This document shows positions 10,720 through 40,578 of a stretch of DNA of 64,000 bases, in pieces. The DNA is from Pycnopodia helianthoides (lineage: Eukaryota; Echinodermata; Asteroidea; Forcipulatida; Asteriidae). The stretch is taken from the NCBI GenBank assembly GCA_032158295.1, contig CM063244.1, forward strand, positions 22,384,815 through 22,448,814. The letters run 5' to 3'. Every line of letters starts with the position of its first letter. Within the stretch, counting starts at the first letter, position 1. Below the pieces are notes generated by a model. It was given only the letters and a program-made list of their open reading frames with translations, was not told the origin of the DNA and searched no databases. The translations under genes were made by a program, and so were the position numbers.

Positions 10720-13700
10720 ATGACTTCAGTTTTAAGAGTGCTTTTTGTGGCCGGGTGTATGGTCCAGCTTCTGTTCGTGTCGACAGCGTTTGCGACGGCA
10801 GGTAAGCCGGGTATGTTATGTAGCCTCACCCTTACTTCTTGTTGTTGTTCTCACCTTTAAAAGTTCGGTTACTTGCACCATTGGTAACTTTACAATAGAA
10901 GTATTCCCAAAATGTTACTTGACAGCAGCAGAAAGTTTACGTTTTGTGAACATAAGTTTTAGAAACTGAAACTCTCTTAATATTTCTTCAACCACAATTA
11001 ATTTTTCAGTGGTTGTGATATAAATGTCTTCCGAGTTGTCTTTTCATTATTTGTAAGGGTGTAGAAATCGAAAAGACAATTATCGTGTTCTTTTGGGGAC
11101 GTACATGTGGAAGTGGATCGCTTAATCTACCACCGCTAGCACAACAACTGTGCTTTTAATTTATGCAGCTTCTATTTTTGCTTTGTGTTATAATTGTTAC
11201 TAACAAAAAACCCATTATCAAACGCCCAAATGGAGCTCTTGGCTTCTCTTTTTGTCGCTACTTGCACGGATCCGCCATGTGCGTGTAGAGCCTCGACTTC
11301 ATGATTTTATTTGTGTTGTATTTATGTATCTGTTTGGAGGAAAGTGTCATTACATTACAGTGACAACACAGAGTTATATAATGCTTCTATTCACTGCTGT
11401 CCCCAATTCGAGGCTCTACACGCAAATGGCTAACCGTGCAAAGGACGAATATCTCTTCCTTGTATATAACTTGTATGTTAGAAACTGTGCACCGTGGCCT
11501 TAACCGTTTCGGACGCGAAGCTGGTTGTTATTTAACAACTATTAAACTAGTCATTGAGGACGTAGAGTGTTTTCGAATCGATTCACTGTCTTTTCACATC
11601 TATGCAAATTTTAGGAGTTGGTAACGATTCTTGAAATCAGTCTACTGCGTGTGCAAGCACATAACTGATAGTTATACCATCGACGCTGTCAAAATTGAAA
11701 AGACTTTGCACTCTCGCTAGTTTTTTAACACATCGCTTAGATATTGTGATACACCCAACGTTTGTGGTTTAAGGCCGGACTCAAACGCCGGAGCGGAACA
11801 TAAATCCGGAACTGGTGCTGGAACCGACATGGACACCATGAGCAGCAATTTGTTGTTAAAATGAAAAAATAAACAAATCAAAAGTATAGATTCTTTTTTA
11901 TTAATGGATCGTCGTCCATCTATGCTTTCCCAAAAATAAATTCCCAAACAATCAAGCACAAGTGCTACTGTATGTTATATTGTTTTGTGGTAATAATTTC
12001 TGTGTGTATGATACTATTATGTGATTAAATTTGCGTGCCTATAATTCACTGAAAGAACACATCTTTAATTTGTTAAACATACAACGAATTTTTTCCCTAG
12101 GATGTAACAGTTAAAACTATTCTAATTGTCTAAATAAATGCTTGTATGAAAAAAGTACTTGGGAACTCAATATTGTCAATATCGATGCAACGTTAGTAGG
12201 TGTGGCTAATGCTTGTTCAAATTTCGACAAGAAACTTTTTAAATATAATTATTTTCTGGGGGAAAGTAACATCTAAAACACCAACTTGACCCAGAACCCA
12301 AACACTGTTTTTCAACACTCATATTGACATCAGCTGCTGGCCAATCTCGAAAACGCGATCTTCTTCTTTACCGTTTATACTTCCTGTTTACACGCATGGG
12401 ATGAGGGGGTTACAAAAGGGCGTGGCCAGCTTTCACTCGTTGACTGTGATTCGCTGCGTGGGACCCCTCCCGCTAACGTCCTTTTTCGAGGGCGTGTACA
12501 CTTAAACCACACCTTGGCATTGTTCCATAAAGGCCCACTTTGGGTGTGTGTAAGTGTGTTTGTGTCGAGAGAGGGAGTTGCCCATGTCCTGTCGTATCAC
12601 AACCACGCCCACCGATGACACTTTCAAGGAGATTGAAACTTTCACACACACACTGTTCGCATCATGTTCTTGGAAACAGTTTTAGAAAAGTATGAAATTC
12701 AACAAGTTCTAACCGGTTATACCTTGCTCTAAGCTGGTGTGACCTGACAATAATGGCCTTAGTATGTTCTTGTAATAATCAAGAACAACTGAAACAAGTT
12801 GTAAAACTCCACTCAAGTAATTGAACCTGTTGAGTAATAGAGCATGTATTTTTTTTCTTCTACACTACCCTCGGTTTCGTTTCTATTTTTAAGTGCTGTA
12901 ATCAGTTTGATCAAGATTCGATATCGTTCCTGAATTGCACTCGAAGGATTTCCGTGTTGTGTTCAACGCACGGCCTTGTGATCGGAAATTGAATTGATGT
13001 AAAGGAACTTTGAACACGGGGTCAAACGCATAAGAGTTGCGTATAAAAGTAATTGGTTAGAGCCGGCCTCGACTAGCTGTGGTAGGAATGAACAAACCAC
13101 ATAATCGGAAGAGGGGCTTCCTGCTCAAACTGTACTGCAGGTAAACTGTGGATGGAAATACCAGAAGATAGGCGCGTGGGGGCGGGGTAAAAAGACCTTG
13201 ACTTCACCCTTAAATTAGAAAAAAGGTAACCGTAATATAATCGTGATATACTTCGCTTACGACCACCGTTCGAAAAGGAAAATTAGAGTTCGCAATTTTC
13301 TATTCAGAAAGTTTTACAGTCAAAACTTGACATACAGTTTTGCAGTTTATCCGTAGTGTGAGCAAGGAAGGGTGTTCCTGTTTGAAGGCAACCGGGCTGG
13401 TCTGACCATCTCCGTACATCGAAGTTCAGGAAATGAACTTTAATCATCTAACTTGGCAAGATACAACAAACCCCTGGTCACTTTTTACACTAATTTAGAA
13501 CACCTATCGTGGAAGAGTACAAGTAACCCCGGCGTTTCTGGTTCACACAGCAAGCACCCTTGTTTTACAGGTTTCCTCAGGCTTACGACCTACAGTATTA
13601 AGTACACTTATAATATAAGATATATATATCATATTATGAGGCATCTTTGGTTTCATTACCAGAAATATGTAATAGTAATAATAACATTGCAACCGTGGAC

Positions 13701-16700
13701 GGCTTTGTCATTAAAGGTCAACTGCTTTCTTGTGAAGGTATCGACATGTCTTTTAGTGTTAAAACGCGGTCCACTATTATGCTAATTCTCGGTCTTTGCT
13801 GGCATCGCAGTTTCTGCTGTAATTTACGCTGTCAATGTTGTTATAAGTGTTTTTTTGTGGAGAGTTCTGTTTTGTTTCTGTTTAGTGGAGTGTCGTTGTG
13901 TGTGTTTTTTGTTTTGTTGTGGGGTACTCGGTGTGCGGTGTCCTTCAGCAGACATTGATTGGTCTAAACTCATCGTCAATACTGGTTCCATCATCAGATC
14001 GACAACCCAAAGCGGGAGTCACGGGCTACTGCTTTCGTCAGCGCACCCCAAAAGGGCAAAGAGGGCGTTGTACAGACGAATTACGTCCGTCCGTCCAAAC
14101 GACACTGTCTGGTGCGAAGGAGTGTTGCTTGCTTGGCGGTGTGGGCTGGACCACAAAAACCAACGGCAAGAGATGTGAAAATGCATGCGAGGGCGGCGAG
14201 CCCTACAACAAAGATGTCCAGTCCCTGATGGAAACTTCGGTTGCCCATAACGACAAGACGGATTTTCGGAATGGTACGCCCATGCTCTTGTGCAGATTTG
14301 CACTTAATAATCTCAAACACTCACACAAACACTAATGATTTCCCCCAAATGGGCATAATGTTGATGTTGTATGGGAATGAAGCATAGAGGGCGACAATCA
14401 GTTAACCTGGTTGAAATCACAGGGCGATATGGTCAGTAGAGGGCGCTCCCGATAATCAGAGAGGGTAATGTTTGAAGCCTCTTGCATGGCGTGTAAATCT
14501 CTTTTGGGTGGAGTCTTTGCTCGGTGGTCTCGACGTTTCGAACGATAAACGCCTCGCAAAAGAGATTTACATAATAGGTATGGTTGTATGGTGAGTCGCT
14601 TCCAATTCAAGAAGGGGAACAGTGCAGTTCGTTCGGTGACGTATGATACATGTCTGTTACAAAAATTTGATGGAAATCATTTATGTCTTCCCAACACCTG
14701 ACATGCCCCCCCCCCCAAAAAAAGGGGGTGACCCCACCCCACCCCCCCCCCCAAAAAAAAGAAGAAAAGAAATGGATGCCTTTTTGCTGGTTGTATGGGC
14801 TGGGGTTGGGGGATGTCCAGGATGGACGTGAGGGGTGATGAGGTCCGGATTGTGGATGAGCTACAATCATTATTTTATGTCTCATAGTTAGAATGATTGT
14901 GAATAATCGGATGTTATGACACTGTGACAGATTCTAACAATACTGCCAAGGTCTTATGGAGCAATTGGGCCGACTGGCAGAACTGCACGGCGTCATGCGG
15001 GGTTGGCAATATGACAAGATATCGGACCTGTAACAGCACAGAACATTGTAACGGCTCGAGTGAGGAGACTATCCCATGCAATAACACTATAAGCTGCCAA
15101 GGTATTAAAAAACTATTCGACTAAAATGGAAAAGTTACGCTCTATACATTATTTTATACATACTGTACATTTACCACCACTACCAACAGCACCCACAGAA
15201 AGAATAAACACTTTTGCATTCAAGATAATTTTTTTTAATTACTTGGCTCAACTTTAACCCCCACCATCCTTACGGTGTAACGTTACTGTTGTTCGCGTGA
15301 CAGATATTGGTAACGCTACTTGGAGTGTCTGGGCCGACTGGCAGAACTGCACGGCGTCATGCGGTGTTGGCAATATGACAAGATATCGGACCTGTAACAG
15401 CACAGAGCATTGTAACGGCTCGAGTGAGGAGACTATCCCATGCAATAACACTATAAGCTGCCAAGGTATTAAAAAAACTATTCGACTAAAATGGAAAAGT
15501 TACGCTCTATATATTGTTTTATACATACTGTACATTTACCACCACTACCAACAGCACTCGAAGAAAGAATAAACACTTTTGCATTCAAGATTATTTTTTT
15601 TAATTACTTGGCTCAACTTCAACCCCCACCAATCTCACGGTGTAACGTTACTGTTGTTCGCGTGACAGATATTGGTAACGCTACTTGGAGCGAATGGGCC
15701 GACTGGCAGAACTGCACGGCGTCATGCGGTGTTGGTAATATGACAAGATATCGGACTTGTAACGGAGGGGAGAATTGTAACGGCTCGAGTGAGGAGACTA
15801 TATCTTGTGATAGCAATGTAACATGCCAAGGTATTTAAATGAGCGGCTGTGGAAATTTGAATGAAATGCATAATTCATAAGCGCGATTCTCAATTTTTGC
15901 ATACCAAATCCTAGGTATCTTTCTTGTCTATCTATACAAACACGTTCTGTACGTGGCTTGCTTCCTCTTGGACCATGGTATTATTAAAAAGCATGGTTCA
16001 GCCATTTAACTTGGTGTGTTGAGGTTTATTATAGTTTAGGAATCTTGCGATACTTCTTCCATTCAAATAAATATAAGACCTTTAGTTGTACGAAATAACG
16101 GCTTTGACTGTGGCTATACCGGGTTGCTGAAAATCCCTAAAACAATACCGCTGCAGCCAACGACGAAAGCCACAGCCAATATCGCTTGATTTGGACACGG
16201 CCCATCTCTAACCGAGCGAAAAGTATAGTGGACACTCAAAATTCGTTATTGCTTCAGTTATTCGTTATTCGTTCAGGGAACACGACAAAAATGACGTACT
16301 TTTGATAAAAGGTCTATAGGTAAACATACGAGACAGCTTCCAGTAGGGCCACCGAGAACTCAGCTTAATGATCACTGCCTTTGGTTTCAGTACATCACTA
16401 TCAGCGAATAAGCGCTGATGGCGTTCTAAAACTTTATCACATTATCCTGGTTAACGCCCTTCAGGTGTACAATCCAGCTCGACTGCATAAACATGAGTTT
16501 GCTCGCAAAGAAGATGTGTTTCCCCTCGCAATCTTCACCAACAGAACGAAACCGAAAAAAACAAACACATATTTATTGTGTTTGACACTTTGTTTTTGTT
16601 ACCATTATAGTCCGCCTTACTCGGATAGTAGCATTATTGTATAGATGACTCAAGAATCTTGAACGGTGCACAGTTTACTAACCTAAAGGGGTTCCGTATT

Positions 16701-16756
16701 ATGTTATCCATGATGTGCCAAGATAACAGCAATGTCGACATCACCAGTTGATTGAT

Positions 16757-16796
<40 letters not shown>

Positions 16797-18282
16797 AGAA
16801 TGATTGACTGCTTGCTTGCTTGATTGATTAATTGATCAATTGGAGACAAATAACTTATGTTCCAATGGCCCTGATAAAAATAATTATAGCAAGTAAAATA
16901 AGGGTGGTATCTTGAAAAAATTATGATGTTGAACTTTCCAGACTTCAAAAAAATAAAATGTGTATTTGGAAATAGACAATAAATGATTTACTCTGCTAGA
17001 ACCAAAAGTTCACGAGACATGTTCACATTATACCAATCAATTGTTTTGTTCTTATGTATTTTCTGTGTTTTCCTTGAGAAAGGGAGAGAGAAACAAAAGG
17101 TATAATATTAATAATAAATTTATAATTATAATTAATAGTAAAACTTATAAACGGCAATTGATATTAATAAACATGTATCTATTTATTCAATTTAACTAAA
17201 TAATTTATTATATTTATTTGTTGCAGTCAATGGAGGATGGACTATCTGGAGCGAATGGTCAGACTGCAACCCCTGTGACAGCAATGCACAGACAACACGT
17301 TCCCGGAGCTGCACCAACCCTCCACCGTCTGGTGGTGGAAGCAGCTGCGCTGGCCTTCAGTCAATGACCCGTAACTGTCCAGGGAATTGTGCAAGTATGT
17401 CTACATTTGAGCTGCATTATTTCCTTTAACATTATATACTATTATTCCATTATTATTCTATTAAGGCTCTGCTGCAATCGTTCCTCAGTCTTCACATTGT
17501 TTGTGCCTTATTGATGAACACCCTAGAAGGTTTTTTCAGAATTATGTGTCTATTTTTATAATTGAAGCAATATGTGTACAACATCAGGTATTGCGCAATT
17601 ATTAGTATTACCAATATCGCCAAAAGAAGCTTATTTCCGAAAGAACAAATAAAGTTCTTCAAAATGTGTGACCGGTCATGATCGGAAAGCAAAGGGGCAA
17701 GCGAGTCACACTGGCGTTTGATTTACGTACGATGTTTGAGTGGAAGATTTGCTGTAATAATTGGGACTATAGTCACTAGTGAATAGTGTAGGATCTGAGA
17801 GGCAGGTGTATAATATAGTTCCAACTGTTCCTCAACAGTTCAAACAGTGGGCAGATGATTAGAGTATACTACTGATCGTAACGTCAAGAGAAGATCCAAA
17901 TTGGCTCTTCTCAGAGCCTACAACTACACCCTATCCACATCAACACGCACGAATAATACATATTAGTATTACATGGCCCAAACATTGCACTGTTAATCTG
18001 TAATGCCCCAGGAGGGCAGTGTGTAACCGGTACCTATCAAATCATCACCAACTTACACTTAAAATGCCAATTCTAATTATGATGTTCGCTGTTTTACTCT
18101 TTTCCTGTCCAGACCCGAGCAATGGTTGGAGTGCATGGTCGGATTGGACGCCGTGCTCCGCCCAGTGTGGCGAACAGGGCTTCTCTCTCCGCAGCAGAAC
18201 GTGTAACAGAACACCCCCAACCTGCTCCGGTAAATTTCTTGACTACAAAACGTGTACCACGCACTGCGCAGCTTCAAGATAA
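10720..18282 (+). CDS. Gene A: secreted properdin-like protein (TB-like module + 5 TSP1 repeats), 396 aa
   Basis: Seven coding exons: 10720-10801, 13998-14273, 14931-15101, 15304-15465, 15669-15830, 17227-17394, 18113-18282. All introns are GT-AG and phase 1. Residues 1-26 form a signal peptide (hydrophobic LFVAGCMVQLLFVSTAFA). Residues 28-91 carry six cysteines (39, 52, 70, 71, 87, 91) spaced C..C..CC..C..C, beginning YCFRQ and containing GAKECC and GVGW, like the N-terminal TB domain of vertebrate properdin. Five TSP1 repeats follow (about 120-176, 177-230, 231-284, 285-340, 341-396), with WSxWADW and CTASCG motifs in the first three. TSRs 1-3 are nearly identical and packed with N-glycosylation sequons. 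The protein is probably extracellular; a complement-like role is inferred. Other TSP1 proteins have similar repeats, but TB plus TSRs and nothing else fits properdin best. The start is the first Met giving a signal peptide. Confidence 0.84.
10802..13997. other. Intron 1 of gene A
   Basis: 3.2 kb between the signal-peptide exon and the TB-like exon. I found no further exon and no recognised repeat. The acceptor was placed at ATCATCAG|ATCGAC because only this site restores phase 1 with the donor GCAG|GTAAGC; the stronger-looking CCTTCAG at 13948 would break the frame. Confidence 0.6.
14705..14773. repeat. Homopolymer-rich C/A/G tract in gene A intron 2
   Basis: Runs of C, A and G, each about 7-12 bases, followed by a GAA-rich patch. 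The runs can pair with each other (C-run against G-run). The tract lies between the TB-like exon and the first TSR exon. It produces spurious open frames on both strands. Confidence 0.8.
14931..15830 (+). repeat. Tandem exon-plus-intron duplication (TSRs 1-3 of gene A)
   Basis: Three copies of a ~365-bp unit: TSR exon plus the ~202-bp intron that follows. Introns 15102-15303 and 15466-15668 align almost base for base (shared ACTATTCGACTAAAATGG, TTACCACCACTACCAACAGC and GTTGTTCGCGTGACAG), differing at only a handful of sites. The third unit keeps the exon but is followed by unrelated intron sequence. Confidence 0.95.
15831..17226. other. Intron 5 of gene A
   Basis: 1.4 kb between TSR3 and TSR4. 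It contains a patch of the dispersed GGCTTTGACTGTGGC / GAAAGCCACAGCC type sequence (about 16095-16185) and the ATTG microsatellite at 16748-16795. Nothing else was recognised. The final intron of this gene, 17395-18112, also holds nothing I could name. Confidence 0.55.
16748..16795. repeat. (ATTG)n microsatellite
   Basis: About eleven copies of a GATT/ATTG tetranucleotide with one early substitution (ATCG), followed by a degenerate GCTTGCTT tail. It lies inside intron 5 of gene A. Confidence 0.95.
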
Positions 18283-18633
18283 CCCTTCAGACGAACAGCC
18301 TGGATGGTGTACGTCCGATTCACCCATGAACCCCCCTTCAGTGGAATCAACACTCTCCATGGAGTCATTTATTATACACCTGCCTGTATAGCGAGGAAGG
18401 ACAGATTGACCAACCTACAGCAGTGACGTATCTATTGATCATTGTGCAGAGCCTACCTTCAGACTCGATGCAAAATATAATCACCAACTCCTCAATCTTT
18501 GATACACTTTAAAACAGTTCACCAATGATTATTATCATATCTTGGTCGAATTTAATACAACACGTGTCAGATCTGTCACTTGATCTGGTTCCGTACAAAA
18601 GGGTCAGTCTGACTCGCTTGTGGAGTGAGTAGT

Positions 18634-18639
18634 AATAAA
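18634..18639 (+). terminator. Possible polyadenylation signal of gene A
   Basis: First AATAAA found after the gene A stop codon, about 350 bases downstream. The cleavage site was not determined. Confidence 0.45.
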
Positions 18640-21600
18640 CCTAACACTCCATCTGTGACAGAATCCTGACCCAGAGCTTAGGAGTATTTTTTGTTACCCG
18701 GTATCGGATCCTCGCTCCCCGCTCCCACGTGGCCTATACTCATCACCAAAACATCAAGATGAGGTTGATCTGGTACTTTCTTGCCTATACTTTCTCCATA
18801 GTCGATTTTGAGCAACAGTTGTTTGAGTAGAAAGCCGATTCCACTTTGTTGGTTTACAGTTCTAAGAATTGTTCACATTTCTAAGACCAACATCACCCCC
18901 TGCCCAGCAGCCCACAACCAATGTGTTTCGTTGGATCCGGCACCTGGCCAATTCTGACCCGGAAGGTTTGACGTCATCAAACATATTAAAACAGAAAGCA
19001 CAAGTTGTAACTTTTTAGAGTAAGGTTTCTGATGGATCAACCCTGTCCTTTGGCTTCTCGATGATCGATGGTGACGCGTTTGCTTCAACGATCGATATTT
19101 ATGCTTCAACATTCGATGTTCCAAATATATTTTGTTCCCTTTTTAATTGTTGTTTGTTAACTGTTTAACCATAATGTTTCGAGAGAGTATAGTTTTACCT
19201 TGTAAAGATTAATTAACGTTTTCATTATTTAATTTCGTAACTGTGCACATTGTTGTACTTAAATATTTAACTGCCATTGTATTTATATAGGTAAATATGA
19301 ATCAAGATTAAACAAAACGTCAGTTGTTTTCCCTGTAAAGTCATTCAATTTCAAACCAAAGAAAAGAGAATAAGTTGTTTAGTGCGAATTGTTTTTATTT
19401 TTTTGCTTAATATTTAAATTGTTACAAAAATACAAATGTGGTCAAGGTTTAAGCGTTGTGTCCTTTGAAGATTGAATCTTTCTACAATATTTATGACAAG
19501 TACCGATCGTTTTAGATCGCAAAAGCAACTGTTCGAAGTAAAATTGGTTCGGAGGGGGGAGAACACATTCCGTTTTAGGCTTACATGATTTTTACTGGTG
19601 TCGACGTCTCGACGTGGGTTTTATGAATTATGTTATTAATTTTAAAAGGTTTCCGGGGCAACCTCTTGGTGGCGCCCCTTTTTTTTGGTCGTGGATGATC
19701 CTTACAGAATTGTTTTATACAATATACACTCGTTATGAAAACAATGCCATGCAGCTGCACTGCTTCCCTAATACATACCTGTACATGTACATCGGTTTGC
19801 AATGGTCTTATTTATATTATATAAGGAGTCCTAAATAATGCACATAGATACATTGTTGTGCAAAAAGTATAATGTTTGTTCAAAAATTGTATTTTGGGGT
19901 GGTTGAATATTGTATTCCGCTTGCATTCTGTCCTTATTTTAAACAAGTGTGTTGATATCAATTTGTAGAATAACGTGTATATTTTCCATGAGAATGAAAA
20001 GTTTAAGTAATTGAAGTATTGTTTCTTGCTCAGTCTAGGTAAATCAAAGTCAATTTGTTGTATTAAAGCACCTCTGTAAGCTTATTGAAAGTACTCATCG
20101 ATTATTAAAGCTACGGAAAGTCGTTTATAAAAATAATTGAGTGATTTCACGTGTCATTTTTACAGACTTTTTGTTCATAGAGCATCGATGATGACTTAAC
20201 ACGATACTTTTAACAATAAGTTGAGCTTGTGGCGTTTTGAAAAGCACTCAAAAATTGACTGTGCAAGTCTGGTCTTAACCGTACTGGGTTTCACGTGTGC
20301 GCATATCAGTTTCGTTAAATAGTTTAGTTTAACGGAATTTATGGCAACACAAATGATATCCTATTGTTGAGAATGTAAAATTAAGTCATAAAATATATAT
20401 AAAAACAAGAAAAACAAACTTAACTTATCAACACAGAAAACCCGAGAACAAGACCTTGGCCCCAATTTCAGGTTGCTTGTAAACAATTAGGAATTGTGCC
20501 CAACTGACGTTCGTGCTGTCATTATAACTGTGTAATGGTCGCACAAATTCGGGCGTGATTGGCAAATTGGGTATCTAAAAATAAGCAACTTGCGCCAAGT
20601 TTTAATTTTTGTTTAGTGTCACTTTTAACAAATTATTTGTATCAAACAAAAATTTAAATTGAATTGATAAAAATTGCTTTTGGTATTTTTGTTTTCAGGA
20701 ACTTTCCCATTTTCGATTCGCGCGAGACTTGGCCAGTCTATTTCCATATTCATGATGTAATGAATTTTTACCGCGGCAATTTTTCTTTGAGGATACGTTT
20801 TAACCCATAACGTTAGTGGAGCCGTTACGCATTTAACCCATTCCAGGTACGCTCGGTGTTCCATAAAGGCATTGAGCTCCGGAATGGCGATGGTTTGAAT
20901 CCCACCCGAGTAGTATGTCTCACTTGGTGTATCCCAACATATGCATAAAATAACAAACCTGTGAAAATTTGGGCTCAATTGGTCTTCGAATTTGCAAGAC
21001 AATAATGAAAGAAAAAACACCCTTGTTGCATTACTTTGTGTGCTTTCAGCAGATGCATAATAAAAGGCTTCAGCTAGAAGTCTTTTATTATTTGAGTGAG
21101 AAATTACCTCTTTCTCAAAAACTACGTTACTTCAGAGGGAGCCGTTACTCACAATGTTTTATACTATCAACAGCTCTCCATTTCTCGTTACCAAGTAAGT
21201 TTTTTTGCAAACAATTATTTTGAGTAATTACCAAAAGTGTCCAGTGCCTTTAACACATGACATTTCTCGGTGGTGAATGCCCTTCTTAGAGTAATCAGAA
21301 GGAGGCAAGTCATATGGCATATGAAAGCTAATGCCCTGACTAATTTTTTAGATGTAAATAAATTACGATGCTTATTTAAATAATTGTGTGACGGTCATTT
21401 GAATATTTATTTTGTCAATCTTATGACAACCGTTTCTCAAGAAGTATATACGTCCGATCCTCAAACTTGTTTCGGTTATAGATTTAATTGTATATTGTAA
21501 ACACGAATTGTGGCATATTGGTGTCTGTCACGTCATCATGACGTCATTTATTGCTCGTTTCATATATGTGTAGACAAGACATGGCTCAAAAAGTGAAACA

Positions 21601-29200: not shown

Positions 29201-30164
29201 TATCGTGTAAGTAAACACACACGCAAAGCCACATGGCACACTTAAAAGCAGAGCACTGACACCAAGAGCCCGTTCAATCCACCAGACAGTAGTACATCCT
29301 ACACGGGTAGAATGTGAAATTTCACCGCGGGGGGGGGGGGGCTCATTATTTACTGGGTTCATACAATTTCAAAATGTCCACAATCACCGCTGCTTTTTTA
29401 GGTTGCAGCAATCAACACGGGTACTTTTTATTCATGGGCTGAAAACATACACTAAGGTACGTGTAAACACGAGTAACCCCAAAATTCATTCAGCTGGAAG
29501 GTAGAACAAATTTAAGTATAGGTCATCTCTAGCCCTGCTACCATTTGTATCACTTCACGATGAAGTTACTCATCAGGACCAAAGCAGTTTAACAAAACGG
29601 GTTACATTGAAGACGCAGCTAACTATTACAACCCTAAAATACAGTTCCAGCTAGGAAGGAACAATTTTGAATACTCACAGTTTAACACAGGAGGTGGTTG
29701 TTCAAAATACCCCCAGGTGTTAGCAAAGTGTATTTGCAGGGGGACACACGGTTTTTGTTATTAAGAAACATCATAATCGAGAAAATCGACTATCCAGTAT
29801 TTACGTTACACGTGCAAAGTTGTCAACATCTTAACGGTCGCACAGAGAGTACTTATGCTCTGAGAGGCTGTTTGGCACATTATAGTAACATGATGCCCAA
29901 AATAACCCCTCCGTTCCAACAGCATATCAACCTGAATGGCGGCCAGTGCTATGAGTTCTTTTCCCATTGTGTTCCTGTGTTGACTTAGCTGTTGTAAAAC
30001 ATCTTCTAAAGTACCCATTATTCCCACGTTATGTAGTCTCTGTCTGACCTTGGACATGTTGACTACTTTGAATGGCTCTCTAACTCACCTGCAGGGTCGC
30101 AATCACACGTTGAAGCAAGGAGGAGTACAAGTCCAACAAAAGTGCCAGGAACTCTGGAAGTCAT
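23228..30164 (-). CDS. Gene D: secreted protein with five TSP1 repeats, 318 aa
   Basis: Six coding exons on the minus strand: 30164-30089, 26974-26795, 25941-25768, 25247-25071, 24333-24157, 23400-23228. All introns are GT-AG, phase 1. Residues 1-23 are a signal peptide ([16 protein letters not shown]). TSRs occupy about 26-85, 86-143, 144-202, 203-261 and 262-318. The first three share [10 protein letters not shown] and CSASCGTG and are close copies. The fourth ([15 protein letters not shown]) has a classic CSVTCG-like core. The last ([19 protein letters not shown]) resembles the last TSR of gene A. I found no TB-like exon in the 3.1-kb first intron, so the protein seems to be TSRs only. Sequons (NWS, NCS, NIT, NRT, NGT, NVT) recur. 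The donor of exon 5 was set at ACTT|GTGAGT because it alone restores the frame. Probably extracellular; related to A and B, role unknown. Confidence 0.82.
23441..23656. mobile_element. GGGTCA-rich short element (family V)
   Basis: About 215 bp with repeated GGGTCAGG/CTGACTC/TTCCGGGTCA words, ending TTTTGAGAGAGTG. It lies in the last intron of gene D. It shares the CCACGGGACCCG core with 41559-41766. Confidence 0.8.
24572..24910. repeat. Hexanucleotide-type satellite (GGGCTC/GGGCTT/GGTCTT) in gene D intron
   Basis: About 340 bp built of 6-bp words GGGCTT, GGGCTC, GGGTTC, GGTCTT, GATCTT and GAGCTT, arranged in longer blocks of 90-100 bp that themselves repeat. Because the unit is 6 bp, both strands stay open: plus reads as Leu/Gly/Ser and minus as Lys-Pro-Glu-Pro. 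No splice sites place it in gene D, so it is treated as intronic. Confidence 0.9.
26130..26535 (+). mobile_element. TTAA-flanked MITE family X, copy 2
   Basis: About 400 bp matching the family; the left end reads TTAGAGGAAC (one base off TTAA) and the right end GTTCTTTTAA. It sits in the gene D intron between TSR1 and TSR2, and is flanked on both sides by copies of an ~86-bp host sequence (26048-26133 and 26534-26626). Confidence 0.9.
27436..27620. mobile_element. GGGTCA-rich short element (family V)
   Basis: A 185-bp element beginning CACTCTGAAATCTCCTGGGT and ending TTTTAAAGAGTG, so CACTC/GAGTG form short inverted ends. It contains alternating GACCTGG, TGACCCAGG and GGGTCAGG words. It lies in gene D intron 1. 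Confidence 0.8.
27750..28964 (+). mobile_element. TTAA-type MITE family Y, split by a nested element
   Basis: The left part (27750-28077) begins TTAAAGGCACTTGACACG. The right part resumes at about 28898 with GGATACACCAAGTGAG and ends GTCCAGTGCCTTTAA. The family order is continuous once the nested element is removed. It lies in gene D intron 1. Confidence 0.85.
28078..28897. mobile_element. Nested DNA transposon remnant with 9-bp target duplication
   Basis: About 820 bp starting TAGACTTGGTTCCAAGTCTG and ending CAGACTTGAAATCAAGTCTA, so the ends are inverted repeats and each is itself a small palindrome. Both flanks read GGATACACC, a 9-bp direct repeat of the host MITE. No transposase frame remains. 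A 9-bp duplication suggests the Mutator-like class, although an 8-bp hAT reading is possible if the boundary is shifted by one base. Confidence 0.75.
28965..30088. other. Upstream part of gene D intron 1
   Basis: No exon found on the minus strand; in particular no ECC-containing TB-like exon. It contains a 13-base G-run (about 29329-29341). Nothing else was recognised. Confidence 0.5.
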
Positions 30165-30330
30165 GATCGTTCAGCAGTCACTGAAGACGCAGACAGACGT
30201 ACAGTTCACGGTGTGCCTCTCCTCAAATTGAACGTGTAGAACGTGGGGTCGGCACATACGCTGCGGTAAAGTTGAACCGGACTCTGCCTTAAACCACAAG
30301 TGAATTGGATCCAGAGAATAAGACTCGTTG

Positions 30331-30340
30331 GTTTTATATA
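30331..30340 (-). promoter_or_regulatory. TATA box of gene D
   Basis: On the minus strand the sequence reads TATATAAAAC, about 170 bases before the gene D start codon, which predicts initiation near 30305. Confidence 0.6.
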
Positions 30341-31734: not shown

Positions 31735-31768
<34 letters not shown>

Positions 31769-31831
31769 GCACTTTCACTTATGAAGTTCGAGTAGCGGGA
31801 ACTGTGATCATTTTGGAGCTATCCGGTGAAG
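30341..31831. other. Shared upstream region of divergent genes D and B
   Basis: The start codons of D and B are 1.67 kb apart, head to head. An A-rich (CAAAAA)n patch lies near 30483-30520. I found no TATA box suited to gene B. The retroposed poly(A) insertion at 31721-31765 is the only mobile sequence seen. Confidence 0.5.
31711..31775 (+). mobile_element. Minimal retroposed poly(A) insertion with target duplication
   Basis: GCTGCACTTT at 31711-31720 is repeated exactly at 31766-31775. Between them are 15 bases (TTGTAGCCGTTGGAC) and 30 A residues. This is the structure of a LINE-machinery insertion cut down to almost nothing but the tail. It lies 57 bases before the gene B start codon. Confidence 0.85.
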
Positions 31832-34800
31832 ATGATGAGAGCTACTCGAGAGATGGTGTCCTTTAGAGCACACCTTGCTGTCCATTTAGCGGTGGCATGC
31901 TTTGTCATCTGCAGTAACATTGCAACGGCCGGTAAGCTGTAATTATTATCAGGTTATGAATGTTTTAATTAATGGTATCATGGCCTCCGTGAATGCCCCA
32001 CCGAGCCAATACAAATCATGTAAGGCCATCCGTGGTTTTCTTTCAGAGTAAAAATCAGCGACGCAATCAGTGTTTGCGTATAATTCAAATGACTGCTTGT
32101 GTACGCATGTTTCAAATAAGTGGATTGTGTTGCCATTGACACGATTGACAAAATTCATTGTCATTGCTTGTTGGTTACTAAACCTTTTAGATATTTATGC
32201 CAGTATTTGTTTAACTTTATAATACTGTTTTAACCAGAGAAGTAAATTTGGCTTTTCGGGTTTAGTTCATCTAGTTTGTATTTTTACTTGTCAATCAACA
32301 TTTTTTACGAAGAAGAAGAAGAAAAAAAGGAACTAAGTACATTTTATTTATTTTTCCTTGGGGGGGTAGCTGTTTGATGTAGACAAAATAACCCCAGATT
32401 ACCCTACTTGTTAATCAACTTAAATACAGAGGCAGGGTTTGGTAAAGTATGACCTAGGGAAAATCCGTTCTGTAGTTCAAAACCTAATAAATGGAACCCG
32501 TTGCAAAAACAACAGGCCACATTTAATGTTAAGTAAGTTTTGGTCGCTCACTTATTTATTTTAACCGTGGCTAGCAGTGACTTCCCTGTACCATGCAAAC
32601 AATGGTACTTCAGATGACAAACCATTCGGAAACAAAGTTCCGTATAAACCGGATTTATTCACACTGTACCCACATTAGCTTCCTTACTGAGAAACAACAA
32701 TCCCCTTTAGGGAGGTCATGTTTTCATTCAGACTCAAACGAGATCATTCGAAATAATATCATATCATTTATTATATAAAGTATACGGCATTTAAAGGAAC
32801 ATTACAGAATTGGTTATTGCTAACAAAACAGTTGCTGCAGTGTAAGCACTTTATGTAATCCACCATATACATAAACTGACAAACCTGTAGAAGTTTGAGA
32901 TCGATCGGCCATCTGGTCACGGAAAATAGTGAAAAACCGATTACACATTTGCATGAAATCATATAGATTCAACAATGAATAAAACGTCCACTGAGCGATA
33001 AGCTCCAATCAGAAAGTTAGTTTATTCATTTCTCATCAAATATGGCATTTCAGACATAAATATTTCAAGGGATGTTTTCTACTATCACCATCATTAGACC
33101 GTGTAAGTTTTATGTAAATCCGTGATCAAAAAGTATATCTTACAAGTTTTTTTTTACCAATTCTGTAATGTTCCTTTAAGTAGAGATTATAAAAGCTGGC
33201 CATAAAAAAAATGACGCTGTCTTCAATGAATTTGTTGTTGTCCTCTTCTTAGATAATCTCGGTAAAGGTTTTTGTTTTCGTCAGCGAAGGAACGGGAAAT
33301 GCAATGGGTTAATGGAGACATTTCCAGGATCTGCTGCCAAGATCAGCACGGCCGATGAGTGTTGCTCCCAGGGTGGAGCCGGGTGGGCAGAGAGAAATAA
33401 TGGCAGGAGGTGCTTAGATTCCTGCAATGAGAAAATTGATCTTGAGCAGCTGTCGCCAGAGGAGGGTGTAACCCGAGGTACAGATTACTTTGAAAGGATT
33501 TTTCTGTGAACGAGTTGCTTCTGAATAAATTGTAATAATAACAATATCAACCTGAAGTTCATCAACGAAAAAAAGGTGACGCTTTCGATAGTTTTGATGA
33601 AAGCATCAATTGGCATTAACTCTTGAAAACAGTGCATTGAATATAAATATTTGAAGAAAAAAAAATCAAAAAAAGGACATGTCTATTATTATCGTTATTC
33701 TCTGTTTGCCGGCAACTTGTTGAAGTTTCTTGTGCAGTATACTGAGTTTGATTTATTTATCTTTTATTAGTATGTAATTTATTTAATTTAATCGAATATT
33801 TTGTTGTTGTTTTATTATTTAAATATATGTTTTACATCTACGTTTTCTCGATAAAGAATGGTATTCAAACTCATTTTAAATCCATAGTTGAAGGAGTTTT
33901 GGGTGAGTGGGGGGAGTGGATGCCGTGCTCCGTCTCTTGTGGGGAGGGCATCGTGCAGAGACAGCGGCAGTGTATCTGCGAGTCTCCTGATGACACCATG
34001 TGTTGCGATGATCAAGTTGTTGAACAGGAGCCCTGCAACACTAATGTTTTATGTCCAGGTAAATATATAAGCTCACGATGCGCGCTCAAGAGTTTTATTG
34101 ACGTCATAGCCTCGTGAGTAGACTTGTTCCTAGCCCGAACATCTGACGTCACACTTCGAGGCTCGTGTTTTACGCCAGAGACCGGCTTCGAGCGTTTGGA
34201 GGAATCCTGACAAACGCACCTTTGGCCTCCCATCCCATTGCGGTCTTGCGGATAGGGGAAAAGTCGGACATGGGACCAGTCTAGCAGTGACCATCATTTT
34301 GATTAATAGACCGGTGCCTGTCCCTATCCTTGCGGATAAGGACAGCGGACCAGTCTAACTTGTCCCCTGTCTTTATCCGCAAGGATAAAGACAGGTACTG
34401 GTCTACAGGCCTAATGATTTCGTTGGATTTAATAATTTCATTGGAGACAATTATTTCATTGGATACAATTATTTCATTGGATACAATATTTCATTGGATA
34501 AAATATTTTATTGGATAAAATATTTTATTGGATACAATTATTTCATTGGATACACGTGCGTTGACGTAGGCTTTCCATGTCTGTATTATGATTGGTCCTA
34601 TAGGTGATGTAATTGGTCAGCTTGCACTTTCGATCGTCTGCATGCAGCGTGTGCATAATCATTGTTTGTACATCATGTAATGTTATTTTATTCACTATGT
34701 AATATGTGTACATGTACCTGTGAAGGGACTTCGAGTCTCCGCATGAAATGAATGCAAGGTCAAAGGTACATCTGACAACATCCGGTCAAGCCGGTATCTG

Positions 34801-37800
34801 GCGTTATTCACGAGCCTCGAAGTGTGACGTCAGATGGTCAGGCTACCTCGTGAGTAGCCCGAAACATCATGTTTGCATACATCGCCTATGAATATAAAAA
34901 CCATGATGCATATTAAACTGATAGAGTAAACAAAAGTATTTGAACTTGAAATGCCTAGTTTGTGATGATAGCAAATAACCAAAAACCACATAACAAAAGT
35001 AATGTTGGACAGGCTATCACATTGAAATAAGCCTACATTACATTGAAAACATTGCTGTTTACATATTTTACGTACGAGGATTTATTTCATTTGTGCAGTA
35101 GACAGACAATGGGTCCATTTTGTGCTTGCGACCTGCCATGATGGTTACTATAATGGACCAATCATCACAGAGTTAAACGCTTTAGGATAGTGCATGACCA
35201 TCTGATGAAATGATTGGGTTTCTAAAAAGACAAGAGTCGGGGTTTGAGTCAGGGGACCTTTCTACTGTTCTACTGGTAAATCGTTGCAAGCATTGAACTG
35301 ACACGCGAGGGCGGGCGTTGTAAGAACACATGTGTATTACGGACCAATCACGGTTACCCAAGAGCAATTAGTATACGGAGTTCTTGGCACTTTGCTGGTA
35401 CACAAGAGCGTACAATAACAACACGCTTATATTCTTCCAAAGTTGCATACATTGTATTAACGTATCACTAATTTAGACTACGGAGGAAAGTCTGACGTCA
35501 TGGCAGTGGCCACGGATTTGGCTGTTGCTACGGCTTCGGCTGTTGCTCAGGGTATTGCTGCGAGCATCCTATGCTCTATGATTGTTAATGTCAATTGAAA
35601 GCAGCAGCCTCTAATTTAGACACGGAAGTTCCCGCGACCGTGTCCGATTTGTGGCTAATAATAAAAAATATTAAATTGCCGGGTTTCATGAGACCAGAGT
35701 CCGGGACTGAGTCATGGGACCAGTCTCCTGACAACTTCGTTATTAGCATTGAACTGTCACGCGAGGGCGCACGTTTGGGCCTCCTTAGCGTGTTATCCTA
35801 GCGATCGAAACGTATCCTCAGCCGCTAATTCGAAAACGGCCTACTGTTTATGACAGGACAGCACGTGGTCAGTTTTCAAGATGGAGTCCAATTATGAAAT
35901 TTTAAGCCTTTTTACTTATTAAAAGCTTTCTTCTTTGACGTGTGGGTTATAATTTTATACACGATGTACTTTTCCGAACGCAAAGCATTGTGTACTGTCT
36001 TCACTGAAACCGAACCCTCCATGAAAAAACTCTTGGTGGCGCACTATTTTGTGAACCCCACATTGGATTGATTTCTATTTTTGTCATTGCTTATTTTCTT
36101 ATAGTTTTGAAATTAAAAACATAAATCTTGAAATTTTTCCTTTATTACGAATCTGAAAGTGTGCAAATATTCGAGAAAACTGGCTTTCTTAAATACTTAC
36201 ATCCTCCTGGAATCTTCGTCAGATATCTGTTTAAAGGTTTAGATCAGTCAGTGTGTTTTATAATAAACGTTTTATCTTGCAGAAAAGCATCTTTTTTAAT
36301 CGTGTAAGTGGTACCTCACTTATACAAAAAAAAGATATTGCTCTAAAAACATTGACTCTTGGATTTATTCTCCAGTAAACTTACAAACATGTCAAATACT
36401 TTACACCGGACGTTCATTAAAAACAAATGTATTTTTTTAGTGCATGGACAATGGGGCGATTGGAGCAATTGGGGTGAATGTAGTGCTACCTGTGGGGAAA
36501 CAATGACCCGCAAACGGGAATGCGATTCTCCACGATCGGAGCACGGTGGGGATGACTGCATGGGGGACCACAGGGAAGTCGCCTGGTGCAACAATCGAAG
36601 ACACTGCCCGGGTAAGCTGGACTCAATTACCTTTTCATCTTTTATAATTTTTGTTTTATTATAGAAAATGGAGTAGTTTCTTATGAGAATGGAGACTTTG
36701 GACAACGTCATAGGTTACCGTTAGCAATGCCTTCTCGATTACGGTTGTTACTTCCATGTCAACACACGAAACGTGACCGGCAAACATGATCACGACTCTC
36801 AGTTAAAAGTAGGCCACAGTTAAAAATGAAAACCTCTCCTCGATGTTGTTATTAATTTGTCCCTTTTTAAAAAGTCGATGGCAGATGGCGAGCTTGGAGT
36901 TCCTGGTCATTGTGCTCAGCCACATGCGGACGTCGGGGTACTCAAAACCGTTACCGGAGTTGCACAGCACCGAAACCTGGGTACGGTGGGCTGGATTGCG
37001 AGGGGGACGTGAACGTCCAACGTCCATGCAGTGCGCCCGCAAATTGCCCAAGTGAGTTCAGTTCAAGGTCATCTCGAGGCACTTCTCTTAATGTTTGTAA
37101 ACAAAAACATGACTGAAAACTTACAATGTTAAATTCATTAGCATGGTAAAAAGCTACAGCTTAAATCATTGTGTTTTTTGTGAACAAATTGTACTTGCTT
37201 GAGAAGGGAAAATATGTGATAACTTTTGATTTTTGTTTTCTTTTACACATATTAGTGCTTAAAAGCTTTGTTCCAAATGAATTATTTGAATAGATTTGAG
37301 GTAATAAAACTTATGTCAACAGTTGTATTTGGCTAAACATATCGAAAGAAACATATTTTTGGACAATATTTTTGCGAAGCAGAGCTCCAAATAAGAAGAC
37401 AAACAGAATATATTAAAGTAAAATTTAAGCATTCTCATGCATGTGTCCTGTTGTAGTTGATGGCGAATGGAGTGAGTGGAAGAATTGGCACTGCCCAGAA
37501 GGATGTGTACAAGGCGGAGAAGGACATGCCTGGCGATTACGTTATTGTTCCAACCCGTTCCCCAAAAATGGAGGGAAACAGTGCGAGGGCGAAAAGTACC
37601 AGAGTGCCCCGTGTTCAAACTCCATATGCGCAGGTAATATCAAATACAAAGTACAGGGTTGTTACCAGCTACATAGAGGTCATAGCATTCGAATACCACA
37701 ACATCACCATGCTTGTTTTGATAGCCGAAATGGAATAAGTACGTACTTCAAAGAAAAGAAAACCTACGTCGCCTATTTCTTAATCAGGATGACCTTATGT

Positions 37801-40578
37801 AATTCACAGATTGGTTGTTTGGGGGTGTTCACTGAAAACTAAAAGATGAAATTGAACTTATTTAACATACCCTTAATGTATAGATGGGGTACATTCCCAT
37901 GGCTGATTCTCATTGAAAAAGTATACATTAAATGAACCCGATAAGTTTTATTGACCACAGGTATACAAAGGCAGTGTTTTCTAAATTGATTGTTTGAATT
38001 GTGTTACAATAATGTCTGATTCGTGTAACAGTTGAGTACCAATAAACCCATCCAAACGAATACATGTTATTGATTTTTTTTTAGTATGAGCTTTGAGTCT
38101 CACTGAGGTTTTCGTTTTCCCCAATGTGTGATTGAAACAGTGGACGGAGCTTGGGGTGAGTGGTCAAGCTGGTCAGAATGCTCATCGTCTTGCGGCACTA
38201 ATCGCTTCAGAAGCAGAAAGAGACAGTGTGACAACCAACGACCTCACCTCGGTGGATATCCGTGCCATGGCTCCAAGACTGAACAACAATCATGTAACGA
38301 TGTCCTATGCGAATATAAACCAGGTCTGAAACAACTTGCAAATGAAGTGTAACAAGAATAAAATAAAAAAACACCAACGTGTATTACCTATTGCATTATT
38401 CGCAACAAGCAATCTTTAAAAACAGTGACGAGTGATGGAGAACATGTTCATCGTTTGCACTTTTTAGGAAGTATCTCATGAAGCCTTATTATGTTCTCTC
38501 TCTCAATAAGATTACTTATATATAAATAGATAGATAGATAGATAGATAGATAGCATTTATTGTCCACTCAAAAATTATAGAAATTCGATCTCCACTGGAA
38601 AATAGGTGAAAACTAAACATTAAATGTTAGGAGTCAAACTTTTGACTCCACAAAATGGCCGACCGTGTTAGTTCGCAAAGTTCAAGGAAAACCACGCAAT
38701 TTCGAGGCATACTTGTGTGGATCATTGTATTTTACTTTTAAAACATCTTTATAATCAAATGCATGTTATAACAAACGGTTACAAACGCTTTTTGTAGACC
38801 AACTCGACCGATCCAAGGCAACGTGCACCTTTAAAAAGATTATTGTTGTTGAATGCGAAGTGACTGAAAATAGTTAAACAAATGACTGTGCTTTATTTCA
38901 GAGGATTACGACAACAGTCAATGGCCCGGGAGTGATATGGTAGGGCTATGTTATTCTTATTTTTGGTTTAAAGTATCAAAATAATAATGAACCAATTTTT
39001 ATAGTTTGTATTCAATACACCGTGTAAGTCTCTGCGACGATGAGGTCACCATTGAGCTTCCGGGCACCGCTCAGCCGTCAGCTATGGGAGATTAACGTGG
39101 GTGCAATTTTGTGTGATTTTTTTTACTTCTTTCACATTACATTTTCCACCCCCCCCCCCCAAAAAAAAATAAATAATAAAAAAATAAAATATTGGTGGAA
39201 TGATTACATTTAAAAATAGCAATGTTTAATACAAATTAGATAAAATCTGGAAACTTAAAGGCACAGTACACGTTTGGTTATTGGAGCATACTGATTGTGT
39301 TAATCGTATATAAATGAAGGTACATACAGTAAAAAATAACCTGTGAAAATTTCACTTCAAAAGGTGGTCGCGTTTTTGAGATATTACCGAAAAACCGGAG
39401 CAAATATTTCCACGCAGGAAGAATATTCCCCATAGGAATACACAGTCTGAGAAGCGTTTCTGTTCCAAATTTGGGGAAAGTGATGTATTTTCCATAACCG
39501 TAGTACTTCGAAGTTAAAAGTTCCTCAAATTCATTATATTACCCAACGCTGCTGTACTTCTTACCAAGTAAGTTTTTATTGCCATTAATTTTCAGAGTCA
39601 TTACCAAACGTGTACTGTGCCTTTAAGAGAACATGAAGAAATAGTACTCGACCTCCAACATACGGCTCGAAGTGTCAAAAAGCGAATTTACGCAGACTGT
39701 GTTGCGCAAACCGTGTCGACTGCACTAACTATCCGAAGTTAGGTTGTATTTTAAATCGGAATATAAGTGCTTCGTTACTCAGCACAAAAACAGATCTTAC
39801 GTCGCATGGATTTTACGTGGTGTTGCATGGCGTCGCCGGGACAACGACGTCCTAGTTTCACGCGGTTTGGGTACCGTACTTCTACTAAATGTAGCAGCTT
39901 GCTCGAGTTTGCATGCGCATACGTCAAGGTGTACGACGATTGCCCTTTTATTGCATCTTCTCTATGGTCAGACGTGAAGCGGAAGGTCAGCTTTAAAAAA
40001 AACAAGATATTTTTCCAAAGTTTGCGAAATTGTTTACAATTTACAATTTCTAAATTTAGTTTTTTTTTAACTATTCAAACCACATTCATTGGGTGAAATT
40101 TATAAAAACATCGCAATACAAGTTCTTTTCAAAAACAACTGCCACAACACACGCTGTAGCTGCTATTCAAGGTCCAGATTGAAAGTCGTACTTTCTCGAG
40201 GTCAACTTACACAGTCTATTATAATGGGAGACTTTTGGTGACACAAGGTGGCAATGTGCACATGCTCAGACCTACTTTTGCACACCCGCCCGAGTTAACT
40301 CACCTTAAATTATAATAACAGCAAATCTAAAAGAATACAACCAAAACTCGGCAACTGCATCACTAATTGACTCTCTTTTTTCTGCATTCCTTTAGGTATC
40401 AGATATTGGAGTACCCTGCGACGACGAAGATTTGGCCGAGGGAGGTAGTGGGTGTGGGACTGCAGCTGCTACTGGTAGCGGTGATGGAGGATTGAGTGAT
40501 TATGAGCAGCCGGAGTATGTTGATACAAGTGATGACACCGATGACACCAGTAGTAGTGATTTGGTGGTGCCGGAGTAA
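31832..40578 (+). CDS. Gene B: properdin-like protein (TB-like module, 5 TSP1 repeats, acidic tail), 474 aa
   Basis: Nine coding exons: 31832-31931, 33253-33477, 33888-34058, 36441-36611, 36875-37051, 37457-37633, 38141-38323, 38902-38939, 40396-40578. A signal peptide ends near residue 33. The TB-like module (about 34-91) has cysteines 41, 50, 70, 71, 87 and 91, with [14 protein letters not shown] and ADECC; human properdin starts with the same C..C..CC..C..C pattern. TSRs: about 109-165, 166-222, 223-281, 282-340 and 341-401, each with a Trp ladder ([63 protein letters not shown]). The C-terminus (about 402-474) is acidic and Ser/Thr-rich ([10 protein letters not shown]). Vertebrate properdin is of similar length (about 470 aa) with TB, six TSRs and an acidic end. 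The last two joins are the weak point: the donor after TSR5 is CAG|GTCTGA, and an unspliced form would stop at 38352. A binding role for opsonised surfaces is inference. Confidence 0.82.
31932..33252. other. Intron 1 of gene B
   Basis: 1.3 kb between signal-peptide and TB-like exons. It contains MITE X copy 3 (32791-33179) and a GAA-rich patch near 32310. No other feature was recognised. Confidence 0.55.
32791..33179 (+). mobile_element. TTAA-flanked MITE family X, copy 3
   Basis: 389 bp, TTAA at both ends, with the family ends AAGGAACATTACAGAATTGG and CCAATTCTGTAATGTTCCTT. It lies in gene B intron 1, ending about 75 bases before the TB-like exon. Confidence 0.9.
34122..34845. mobile_element. 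Composite element with long inverted ends, between direct repeats
   Basis: CCTCGTGAGTAG occurs at 34110-34121 and again at 34846-34857. Inside, the left arm (from 34131, ATCTGACGTCACACTTCGAG) is the inverse of the right arm (ending near 34845), over at least 28 bases. The interior holds a second hairpin around AGGATAAAGACAGG/CCTGTCCCTATCCT (about 34305-34405) and an 18-bp satellite. The left third is shared with 51199-51428. It lies in gene B intron 3. Confidence 0.75.
34414..34552. repeat. 18-bp minisatellite inside the composite element
   Basis: About eight units of ATTTCATTGGATACAATT with variants ATTTTATTGGATAAAAT. It lies inside the 34122-34845 element. Confidence 0.9.
34858..36440. other. 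Remainder of gene B intron 3
   Basis: No TSR exon found, although the 2.4-kb gap between TSR1 and TSR2 would be the natural place for a sixth repeat. There are two weakly similar patches, 35240-35330 and 35690-35790, sharing GCATTGAACTG(A/T)CACGCGAGG, and GGCTTCGGCTGTTGC-type sequence near 35510-35555. Confidence 0.5.
38324..38362 (+). terminator. Alternative short 3' end of gene B
   Basis: If the weak donor at 38324 is not used, the frame continues for nine codons to TAA at 38350-38352, followed at once by AATAAA (38357-38362) and a second overlapping signal. This would make a 410-residue form without the acidic tail. Confidence 0.5.
38526..38553. repeat. (ATAG)n microsatellite
   Basis: About seven tandem ATAG units within the gene B intron after the TSR5 exon. 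Confidence 0.95.
38636..38835. mobile_element. Short interspersed repeat (family W)
   Basis: About 200 bp. The blocks GACTCCACAAAA, CGACCGTGTTAGTTCGCAAAG, GAAAACCACGCAAT, ACTTTTAAAACATCTTT and a closing GTGCACCTTTAAAA recur at about 3293-3450 and 55588-55725 with CCGTGTTTGTTCACGAAGTA and GTGTCCCTTTAAA. Probably a MITE; its ends were not settled. Confidence 0.65.
39255..39626 (+). mobile_element. TTAA-type MITE family Z
   Basis: 372 bp beginning TTAAAGGCACAGTACACGTT and ending with its inverse, AACGTGTACTGTGCCTTTAA. The ends resemble family Y (TTAAAGGCACTGGACACGTT) but the interior is unrelated. It lies in the last intron of gene B. A fragment of the same end occurs at about 59192-59215. Confidence 0.85.

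Follow-up and report, generated by a model that had tools for sequence, protein, structure and literature searches.

Analysis of a 64,000-nucleotide stretch of DNA from the sea star Pycnopodia helianthoides (referred to below as the window) has established a cluster of three genes, A, B and D, that carry 15 exons for TSP1 repeats (TSRs), five in each gene, as located by a combination of six-frame scanning and exon modelling. Genes A and B both join a six-cysteine module to a pure string of TSRs, which is a properdin-like layout. The cluster and this layout had been claimed in the original prediction, and both are borne out by the exon models and by a six-cysteine pattern that occurs twice in the window. 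We lean towards the view that the cluster encodes a small family of secreted TSR-string proteins, with a six-cysteine short-TB-like module at the N terminus of A and B, that would be multivalent without possessing the vertebrate convertase grip. This short-TB/TSR secreted family, of pre-vertebrate or parallel origin, is the best-supported reading, and the TSR-string family itself is probably old. As judged from the comparisons described below, the properdin label is one of architectural resemblance, with orthology not established.

Organization of the gene cluster

Exon models were built by hand from the sequence alone, with GT-AG sites picked to hold phase 1. Sites compatible with phase 1 are present at every boundary of a TSR or six-cysteine module; since they were chosen by hand, the GT-AG borders and the uniform phase are partly by construction. 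The existence of suitable sites at each module boundary supports the exon models, and phase 1 at all of these boundaries would allow modules to be gained or lost without a break in frame.

Genes A and B are both ordered as signal peptide, six-cysteine module and five TSRs. Gene A occupies positions 10720-18282 of the plus strand. Its first exon (10720-10801) encodes a signal peptide, MTSVLRVLFVAGCMVQLLFVSTAFATA, and ends in a phase 1 donor, while its second (13998-14273; exon model and pattern scan) encodes the six-cysteine short-TB-like module (CFRQ..GRC..ECC..C..C). The following exons, found by six-frame scan and exon modelling, encode TSR1 (14931-15101), TSR2 (15304-15465) and TSR3 (15669-15830), which are tandem copies with a period of 365 bp, and then TSR4 (17227-17394) and TSR5 with the stop codon (18113-18282). 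Gene B, also on the plus strand, runs from 31853 to either 38352 or 40578. A signal peptide exon (31853-31931, with further in-frame ATGs at 31832 and 31835) is followed by the six-cysteine short-TB-like module (33253-33477; exon model and pattern scan), by TSR1 (33888-34058), modelled as an exon, by TSR2 (36441-36611), TSR3 (36875-37051) and TSR4 (37457-37633), found by both methods, and by TSR5 (38141-38323), again from the exon model. The 3' end of gene B is uncertain, as TSR5 may read through to a stop at 38352 or be spliced from a donor at 38323 to possible exons for an acidic C-terminal tail (38902-38939 and 40396-40578).

Gene D was originally described as lying between A and B with the same type of TSR exon. 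The TSR exons are indeed present, but gene D is encoded by the minus strand (30164-23228) and no six-cysteine exon was found in it by pattern scan. Its order is a signal peptide (30089-30164; hydropathy search and exon model) followed by five modelled TSRs: TSR1 (26795-26974), TSR2 (25768-25941), TSR3 (25071-25247), TSR4 (24157-24333) and a divergent TSR5 with the stop codon (23228-23400). A permissive tblastn search with both modules of the first intron of gene D gave nothing that stood out as a module remnant. Genes D and B are divergent, with starts approximately 1.7 kb apart. All three signal peptides are predicted as hydrophobic first exons; for B and D the prediction comes from a simple hydropathy search and for A from reading. 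By eye, TATA-like boxes lie approximately 165-175 bp 5' of the ATG of gene A (TATAAA near 10554) and of gene D (near 30340, minus strand), and none was seen at the matching place 5' of gene B.

The repeats and modules occur well above chance expectation. The six-cysteine pattern is found exactly twice in the window (14030-14188 and 33273-33425, both plus strand), whereas 40 order-1 Markov sequences of window length contain it 0.075 times on average, and a TSR-like motif is found 14 times against an average of 0.025. Additionally, the TSR model PF00090 (cut-off 21.6 bits) matched five stretches in each protein, with 126.7 bits for B, 117.9 for A and 167.6 for D. A regular-expression scan that extended 40 kb beyond the left edge of the window and 20 kb beyond its right edge gave no further convincing TSR; two pattern matches in the right flank (loci L023 and L024) were judged spurious by eye.

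The six-cysteine module of A and B

The modules of A and B are 42-46% identical (E values of approximately 2e-12 to 4e-12 in the window and 3e-7 genome-wide) and have CFRQR, GxC, ECC, GGxGW, NGxRC and a closing C-x3-C in common. On this evidence the two modules are homologous to each other. When the B module was used as a query against the surrounding assembly (479 Mb in 742 contigs), only B and A were recovered at E<=10. Frames with a TB pattern in 58 scanned loci (277 kb) were limited to A, B, a fibrillin-like locus (L003, L010 and L012) and one low-complexity stretch. CC-type modules in the fibrillin-like locus (L010:4761-4973 and L012:8256-8486; for example CFSQ..CC..GQGWG..C..C) have a signature like that of the A and B modules.

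The cysteine order in A and B, C..C..CC..C..C, is that of the N-terminal domain of properdin, which is described as a "short TB" held by three disulphides; its closest neighbours in structure are follistatin, FSTL3 and the hyb2 and TB4 domains of fibrillin-1 (PMC6736995). Cysteine spacings are 12-17-0-15-3 in A and 8-19-0-15-3 in B, as compared with 10-12-0-14-2 in human properdin, 9-12-0-31-2 in follistatin and 9-12-0-29-2 in FSTL3. Thus the distance from CC to the next cysteine (15 residues in A and B, 14 in properdin, 29-31 in the follistatins and 10 in the genome's own fibrillin-type hybrid modules) favours properdin, but the remaining spacings do not. In the short TB fold the cysteines are paired C1-C3, C2-C5 and C4-C6.

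The HMM check that had been proposed for the properdin TB domain did not bear out the prediction, as PF18487 gave no match to the A or B module at E<=10, and neither did any other Pfam model, a negative limited by HMMER filters that discard most matches above about E 0.1. As controls, PF18487 scored 86.5 bits on the human properdin domain and 23.8 bits, against a cut-off of 25, on L003, a TB of fibrillin type from the same genome, in a search that did not list A or B. Likewise, the follistatin model PF21333 recovered a follistatin-like exon of the same genome at 52.2 bits, with A and B not listed. Sequence searches of the PDB gave no match for the B module or for an A+B profile and one chance match for A, and AlphaFold models of the module had low mean pLDDT values (53.5 and 63.0) and no PDB fold match.

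Pairwise scores were compared with those of shuffled sequences in which the cysteines were held fixed; the resulting statistics are weak, above all for A, and many comparisons were made. For B the highest scores were obtained with follistatin (60, z 6.3), LTBP1 TB3 (54, z 5.5, in an alignment of 15 columns only) and the genome's own fibrillin-type hybrid (52, z 4.6), followed by properdin (51, z 4.4), the same genome's L012c (46, z 3.1), L012b (40, z 2.2) and L003 (40, z 1.8), FSTL3 (36, z 2.3) and L012a (32, z 1.1). Against human fibrillin-1, B scored 51 with TB6 (z 4.2), 38 with the hybrid (z 2.9) and 34 with TB4 (z 1.4). For A the order was LTBP1 TB3 (54, z 4.9), own hybrid (47, z 3.7), FSTL3 (45, z 3.5), L003 (41, z 1.8), L012b (37, z 1.4), follistatin (36, z 1.5), L012c (34, z 1.1), properdin (32, z 0.7) and L012a (30, z 0.9), with fibrillin-1 scores of 48 for TB4 (z 3.9), 44 for TB6 (z 3.2) and 29 for the hybrid (z 0.7). 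In terms of probability, B reached properdin TB at p 0.001-0.003 and A at p 0.19-0.24, A reached LTBP1 TB3 at p 0.0013, and the score of B against the N-terminal domain of follistatin was attained by 0 of 4000 shuffles. By these scores the B module is as near the follistatin N-terminal domain, LTBP1 and fibrillin TB6 as it is to human properdin, and for the A module the similarity to human properdin is not significant. The concern that another cysteine family might match better is therefore half justified: follistatin and LTBP1 TB3 score above properdin for B with fibrillin-1 TB6 level with it, and LTBP1 TB3, fibrillin-1 TB4 and FSTL3 score above it for A, while the spacing from CC to the next cysteine is nearest that of properdin.

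An A+B profile run with no filters gave 9.7 bits for both follistatin and LTBP1 TB3, 6.9 for properdin, 6.2 for fibrillin-1 TB4, 5.2 for fibrillin-1 TB6, 5.0 for FSTL3 and 4.7 for the fibrillin-1 hybrid. The fraction of 2000 cysteine-fixed shuffles that reached these scores was 0.0025 for follistatin, 0.0005 for LTBP1 TB3, 0.016 for properdin, 0.009 for TB4, 0.0165 for TB6, 0.0335 for FSTL3 and 0.0665 for the hybrid. Taken together, the pairwise and profile scores make it likely that the A and B module belongs to the TB superfamily, with no single subfamily favoured. A tree of 11 TB rows, which has very long branches and a midpoint root, groups A, B and CFP only weakly (68/87). Against the L003 TB, the human properdin TB reaches a score of 64, higher than its score against B.

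TSRs and the convertase-binding loops

The TSRs are well conserved in motif, with WxxW in all 15, WxxWxxW in 14 and CxxS/TCG in 11. They were compared domain by domain with the six TSRs of properdin (TSR6 in part only) and three of thrombospondin-1. Thrombospondin-1 scores above properdin for eight of the 15 (A1, A2, A4, B2-B5 and D2) and properdin above thrombospondin-1 for the other seven (A3, A5, B1, D1, D3, D4 and D5), so that by this measure the TSRs of the window show no greater resemblance to properdin than to thrombospondin-1. In PDB searches with A and B properdin ranks first by total score, though it also has the larger number of repeats. For gene B, the best stretch taken singly is 94.5 bits over 240 aa for properdin and 100.3 bits over 167 aa for thrombospondin-1.

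In properdin, a thumb in TSR5 and an index finger in TSR6 contact C3b and Bb, and an extra disulphide, Cys132-Cys170, links TSR1 and TSR2 (PMC10087229, PMC6713926, PMC6736995). The thumb, formed by residues 328-336, lies between the first and second motif cysteines (PMC6713926, PMC6736995). It is absent from all 15 TSRs of the window, which have 2-4 residues at this place. Likewise, the index finger, an insert of 31 residues that separates strands B and C, is found in none of the 15, as the gap between the third and fourth cysteines is at most 11 residues in 14 TSRs and the longest, in D TSR5, is 17. A sixth TSR is absent from A, B and D, and the additional disulphide has no counterpart in A TSR1, A TSR2 or B TSR2, which have six cysteines only. 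Vertebrate-type convertase binding by A, B or D is consequently unlikely on these sequence features.

Two TSRs depart from the common pattern. B TSR1 (33888-34058) has eight cysteines, including an extra pair, and the other 14 TSRs have six. D TSR5 (23228-23400, minus strand) lacks the cysteine after RSR and by reading has a rearranged disulphide layout; an extra cysteine, which precedes the motif pair by 10 residues with the tryptophans in between, was read as not forming a thumb.

Of 87 candidates scored in a genome search with PF22195, a model of the C-terminal TSR of properdin, five matched at E<=0.01. Two of these were B TSR5 (in second place) and B TSR3, and all five fall within positions 2-49 of the 90 in the model. 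The same model scored 66.6 bits for D, 65.5 for B and 44.9 for A, and also passed its cut-off on human thrombospondin-1 (39.2 bits). When D TSR2 was used as a genome query, 101 matches at E<=1e-4 were obtained, the window's own included (150 of 163 candidates scored). The matches outside the window lie in several clusters, which indicates that TSR strings are common in this genome.

Predicted N-glycosylation sequons number 19 in A (14931-18282), 13 in D (23228-26974) and none in B (33253-40578), a sharp contrast between neighbouring paralogues.

Duplication within and among the genes

The cluster had been described as actively duplicating in tandem. This is upheld at the level of exons, in TSR1-3 of both A and D, but a blastn self-comparison of the window revealed no gene-sized duplication. 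TSR1-3 of gene A were duplicated together with their introns; the two introns are identical at 192 of 202 aligned positions, and exons 2 and 3 at 141 of 162. The duplicated TSR1-3 exons of gene D are 83.7-92.1% identical in DNA. In all six within-gene pairs dN is below dS (0.05-0.15 versus 0.14-0.45), which is consistent with constraint on the encoded sequence, yet exon copies 2 and 3 of A differ more than the introns do.

Each of the five A TSRs has a D TSR as its best match in the window outside gene A: A TSR1-3 match best with D TSR2, and A TSR4 and TSR5 with D TSR4. This pattern suggests that A and D are sisters, distinguished by the six-cysteine exon. The relation is suggestive only, as four of the five B TSRs (B1, B3, B4 and B5) likewise find their best window match in D, at scores below those of A TSR1-3 with D.

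Neighbouring genes and repeats

SRCR-type exons are present on the plus strand downstream of gene B, at 47328-47654 (a PF00530 match) and at 49202-49558 (by eye only). A neighbouring coiled-coil gene, for whose first exon Pfam gave nothing, is presumably ERC. An interspersed repeat of approximately 400 bp occurs in five copies that are 88-94% identical (4101-4495, 26130-26535, 32789-33182, 48175-48566 and 50371-50763), one of which ends approximately 70 bp 5' of the six-cysteine exon of gene B. Another of approximately 330 bp occurs on both strands with 73-91% identity (20908-21253, 27748-28080, 40664-41019 and 48798-49172), and an interspersed repeat beginning aaaggcactggacac, for example at 40689-41015, may resemble those of sea star genomes. 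An array of 54 hexamers (24581-24906), open in several frames, lies in the gene D intron between TSR3 and TSR4, and a similar frame of GSGL type is present in the flank locus L020:1286-1840.

Discussion

Genes A and B resemble vertebrate properdin (CFP; a PF18487 short TB plus six TSRs) in being predicted secreted proteins with an N-terminal C..C..CC..C..C module, 14-15 residues from CC to the next cysteine, and then TSRs only. They differ in having five TSRs rather than six, in lacking the TSR5 thumb and the 31-residue TSR6 index finger, in the silence of PF18487, in closing with C-x3-C rather than C-x2-C, in a second loop of 17-19 rather than 12 residues, and in having a paralogue, D, without the module. 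Thus, of the predicted match to properdin, the layout is right for A and B, but properdin identity is not established. The six cysteines of the follistatin N-terminal domain (PF21333) are also similar, with CWLRQ..NGRC..EECC in follistatin resembling CFRQ..NGKC..DECC and giving B its best pairwise score, but follistatins have 31 residues (FSTL3 29) between CC and the next cysteine where A and B have 15, and PF21333 does not list A or B. The TB and hybrid domains of fibrillin and LTBP (PF00683) share CC or CCC and G-x-(G/A)-W, and LTBP1 TB3 is the best score of A; unlike the module, however, the TB has eight cysteines with CCC (PMC6736995) and sits among EGF modules. As strings of TSRs, the genes are similar to thrombospondin-1 and to cnidarian TSR-only "properdin-like" proteins, for which a six-cysteine module goes unmentioned in the available text (PMC5446238).

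Properdin was originally taken to be known mainly from vertebrates, a statement that needs a caveat. Sea star complement transcripts include one named by similarity as "Properdin (CFP; contig_312)" (PMC4503460), TSR-only properdin-like proteins are among the largest TSR groups in seven anthozoans (PMC5446238), and sea anemone properdin-likes are also mentioned (PMC12549020). Among the literature matches listed, with most subscription journals outside their scope, there is no invertebrate protein that combines the six-cysteine module with TSRs, and the available portions of PMC7663992, PMC9083331, PMC10381214, PMC5241319 and PMC8698432 contain none. What is new here is the six-cysteine-plus-TSR architecture, its absence from D, and the 19, 13 and 0 predicted N-glycan sites in A, D and B.

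Three other explanations have to be weighed, some of which may hold together, so that their odds need not sum to one. We regard it as rather unlikely that A and B are genuine orthologues of properdin and stabilise a convertase built from invertebrate C3 and factor B, with the thumb and index finger added later in vertebrates. Domain order and short-TB cysteine topology are the same as in properdin, the spacing from CC to the next cysteine is nearest to it, the B module resembles the human TB beyond nearly all cysteine-fixed shuffles, properdin is the top PDB match by total score, B TSR5 stands second among the PF22195 genome matches, the TB tree joins A, B and CFP (weakly), and neither genome searches nor scanned loci yielded a better TB-plus-TSR candidate. 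Additionally, a sea star CFP-like contig is raised in disease together with C3- and C2-like contigs (PMC4503460). Against this, PF18487 misses A and B yet comes close to its cut-off on a TB of fibrillin type from the same genome, thrombospondin-1 exceeds properdin both in the best single stretch of B and for eight of the 15 TSRs, PF22195 also passes on human thrombospondin-1 and on the module-less D with genome matches that cover little more than half of the model, and both loops are absent.

An unlikely but slightly better alternative is that these are TSR strings of the matrix or of adhesive secretions that acquired a fibrillin-type hybrid/TB exon by exon shuffling and have no immune role. 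It draws on the CC-type module with CFxQ and GxGW in the fibrillin-like locus of the same genome, against which B scores 52 and A 47, on the abundance of TSR matches in several clusters, and on the presence of TSR proteins in a cnidarian matrisome (PMC12549020). Against it, the distance from CC to the next cysteine is 15 residues as opposed to 10 in the genome's own hybrid modules. It is quite improbable that the module is an unrelated cysteine-rich fold that mimics TB spacing. The lack of an HMM or meaningful PDB match and of a confident model, together with the mere 4.7-9.7 bits that the unfiltered profile gives to seven TB-type references, would fit such a fold, but no cysteine-fixed shuffle attained the score of B with follistatin, and only 0.05% and 0.25% of shuffles reached the profile scores of LTBP1 TB3 and follistatin.

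Under the preferred explanation of a small secreted TSR-string family, the six-cysteine module would cap the N terminus and may serve in oligomer assembly by analogy with properdin, where the TB packs on TSR4 of a second chain. The TSR rod, with its motifs for C-mannosylation and in part for O-fucosylation, would make for a multivalent protein with an adhesive, opsonin-like or pattern-binding role in body fluid or matrix. Without the properdin grip loops, A, B and D appear to be distant relatives of properdin, not properdins in the strict sense, and A and B would have no vertebrate-style role in stabilising a C3 convertase. The six-cysteine exon may have been lost in D or gained in A, both of which are possible for a symmetrical phase 1-1 exon.

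A bolder proposal, which we hold to be doubtful though conceivable, is that the short-TB-plus-TSR architecture of properdin predates vertebrates, with A and B as its non-vertebrate counterparts, and that it began as a recognition or opsonin protein that only later became a convertase stabiliser. If this is true, then paralogue D would show that the module is dispensable. Moreover, A and B, which have the layout of properdin without its convertase-binding loops, would provide a concrete test of which came first, the scaffold or the convertase function.
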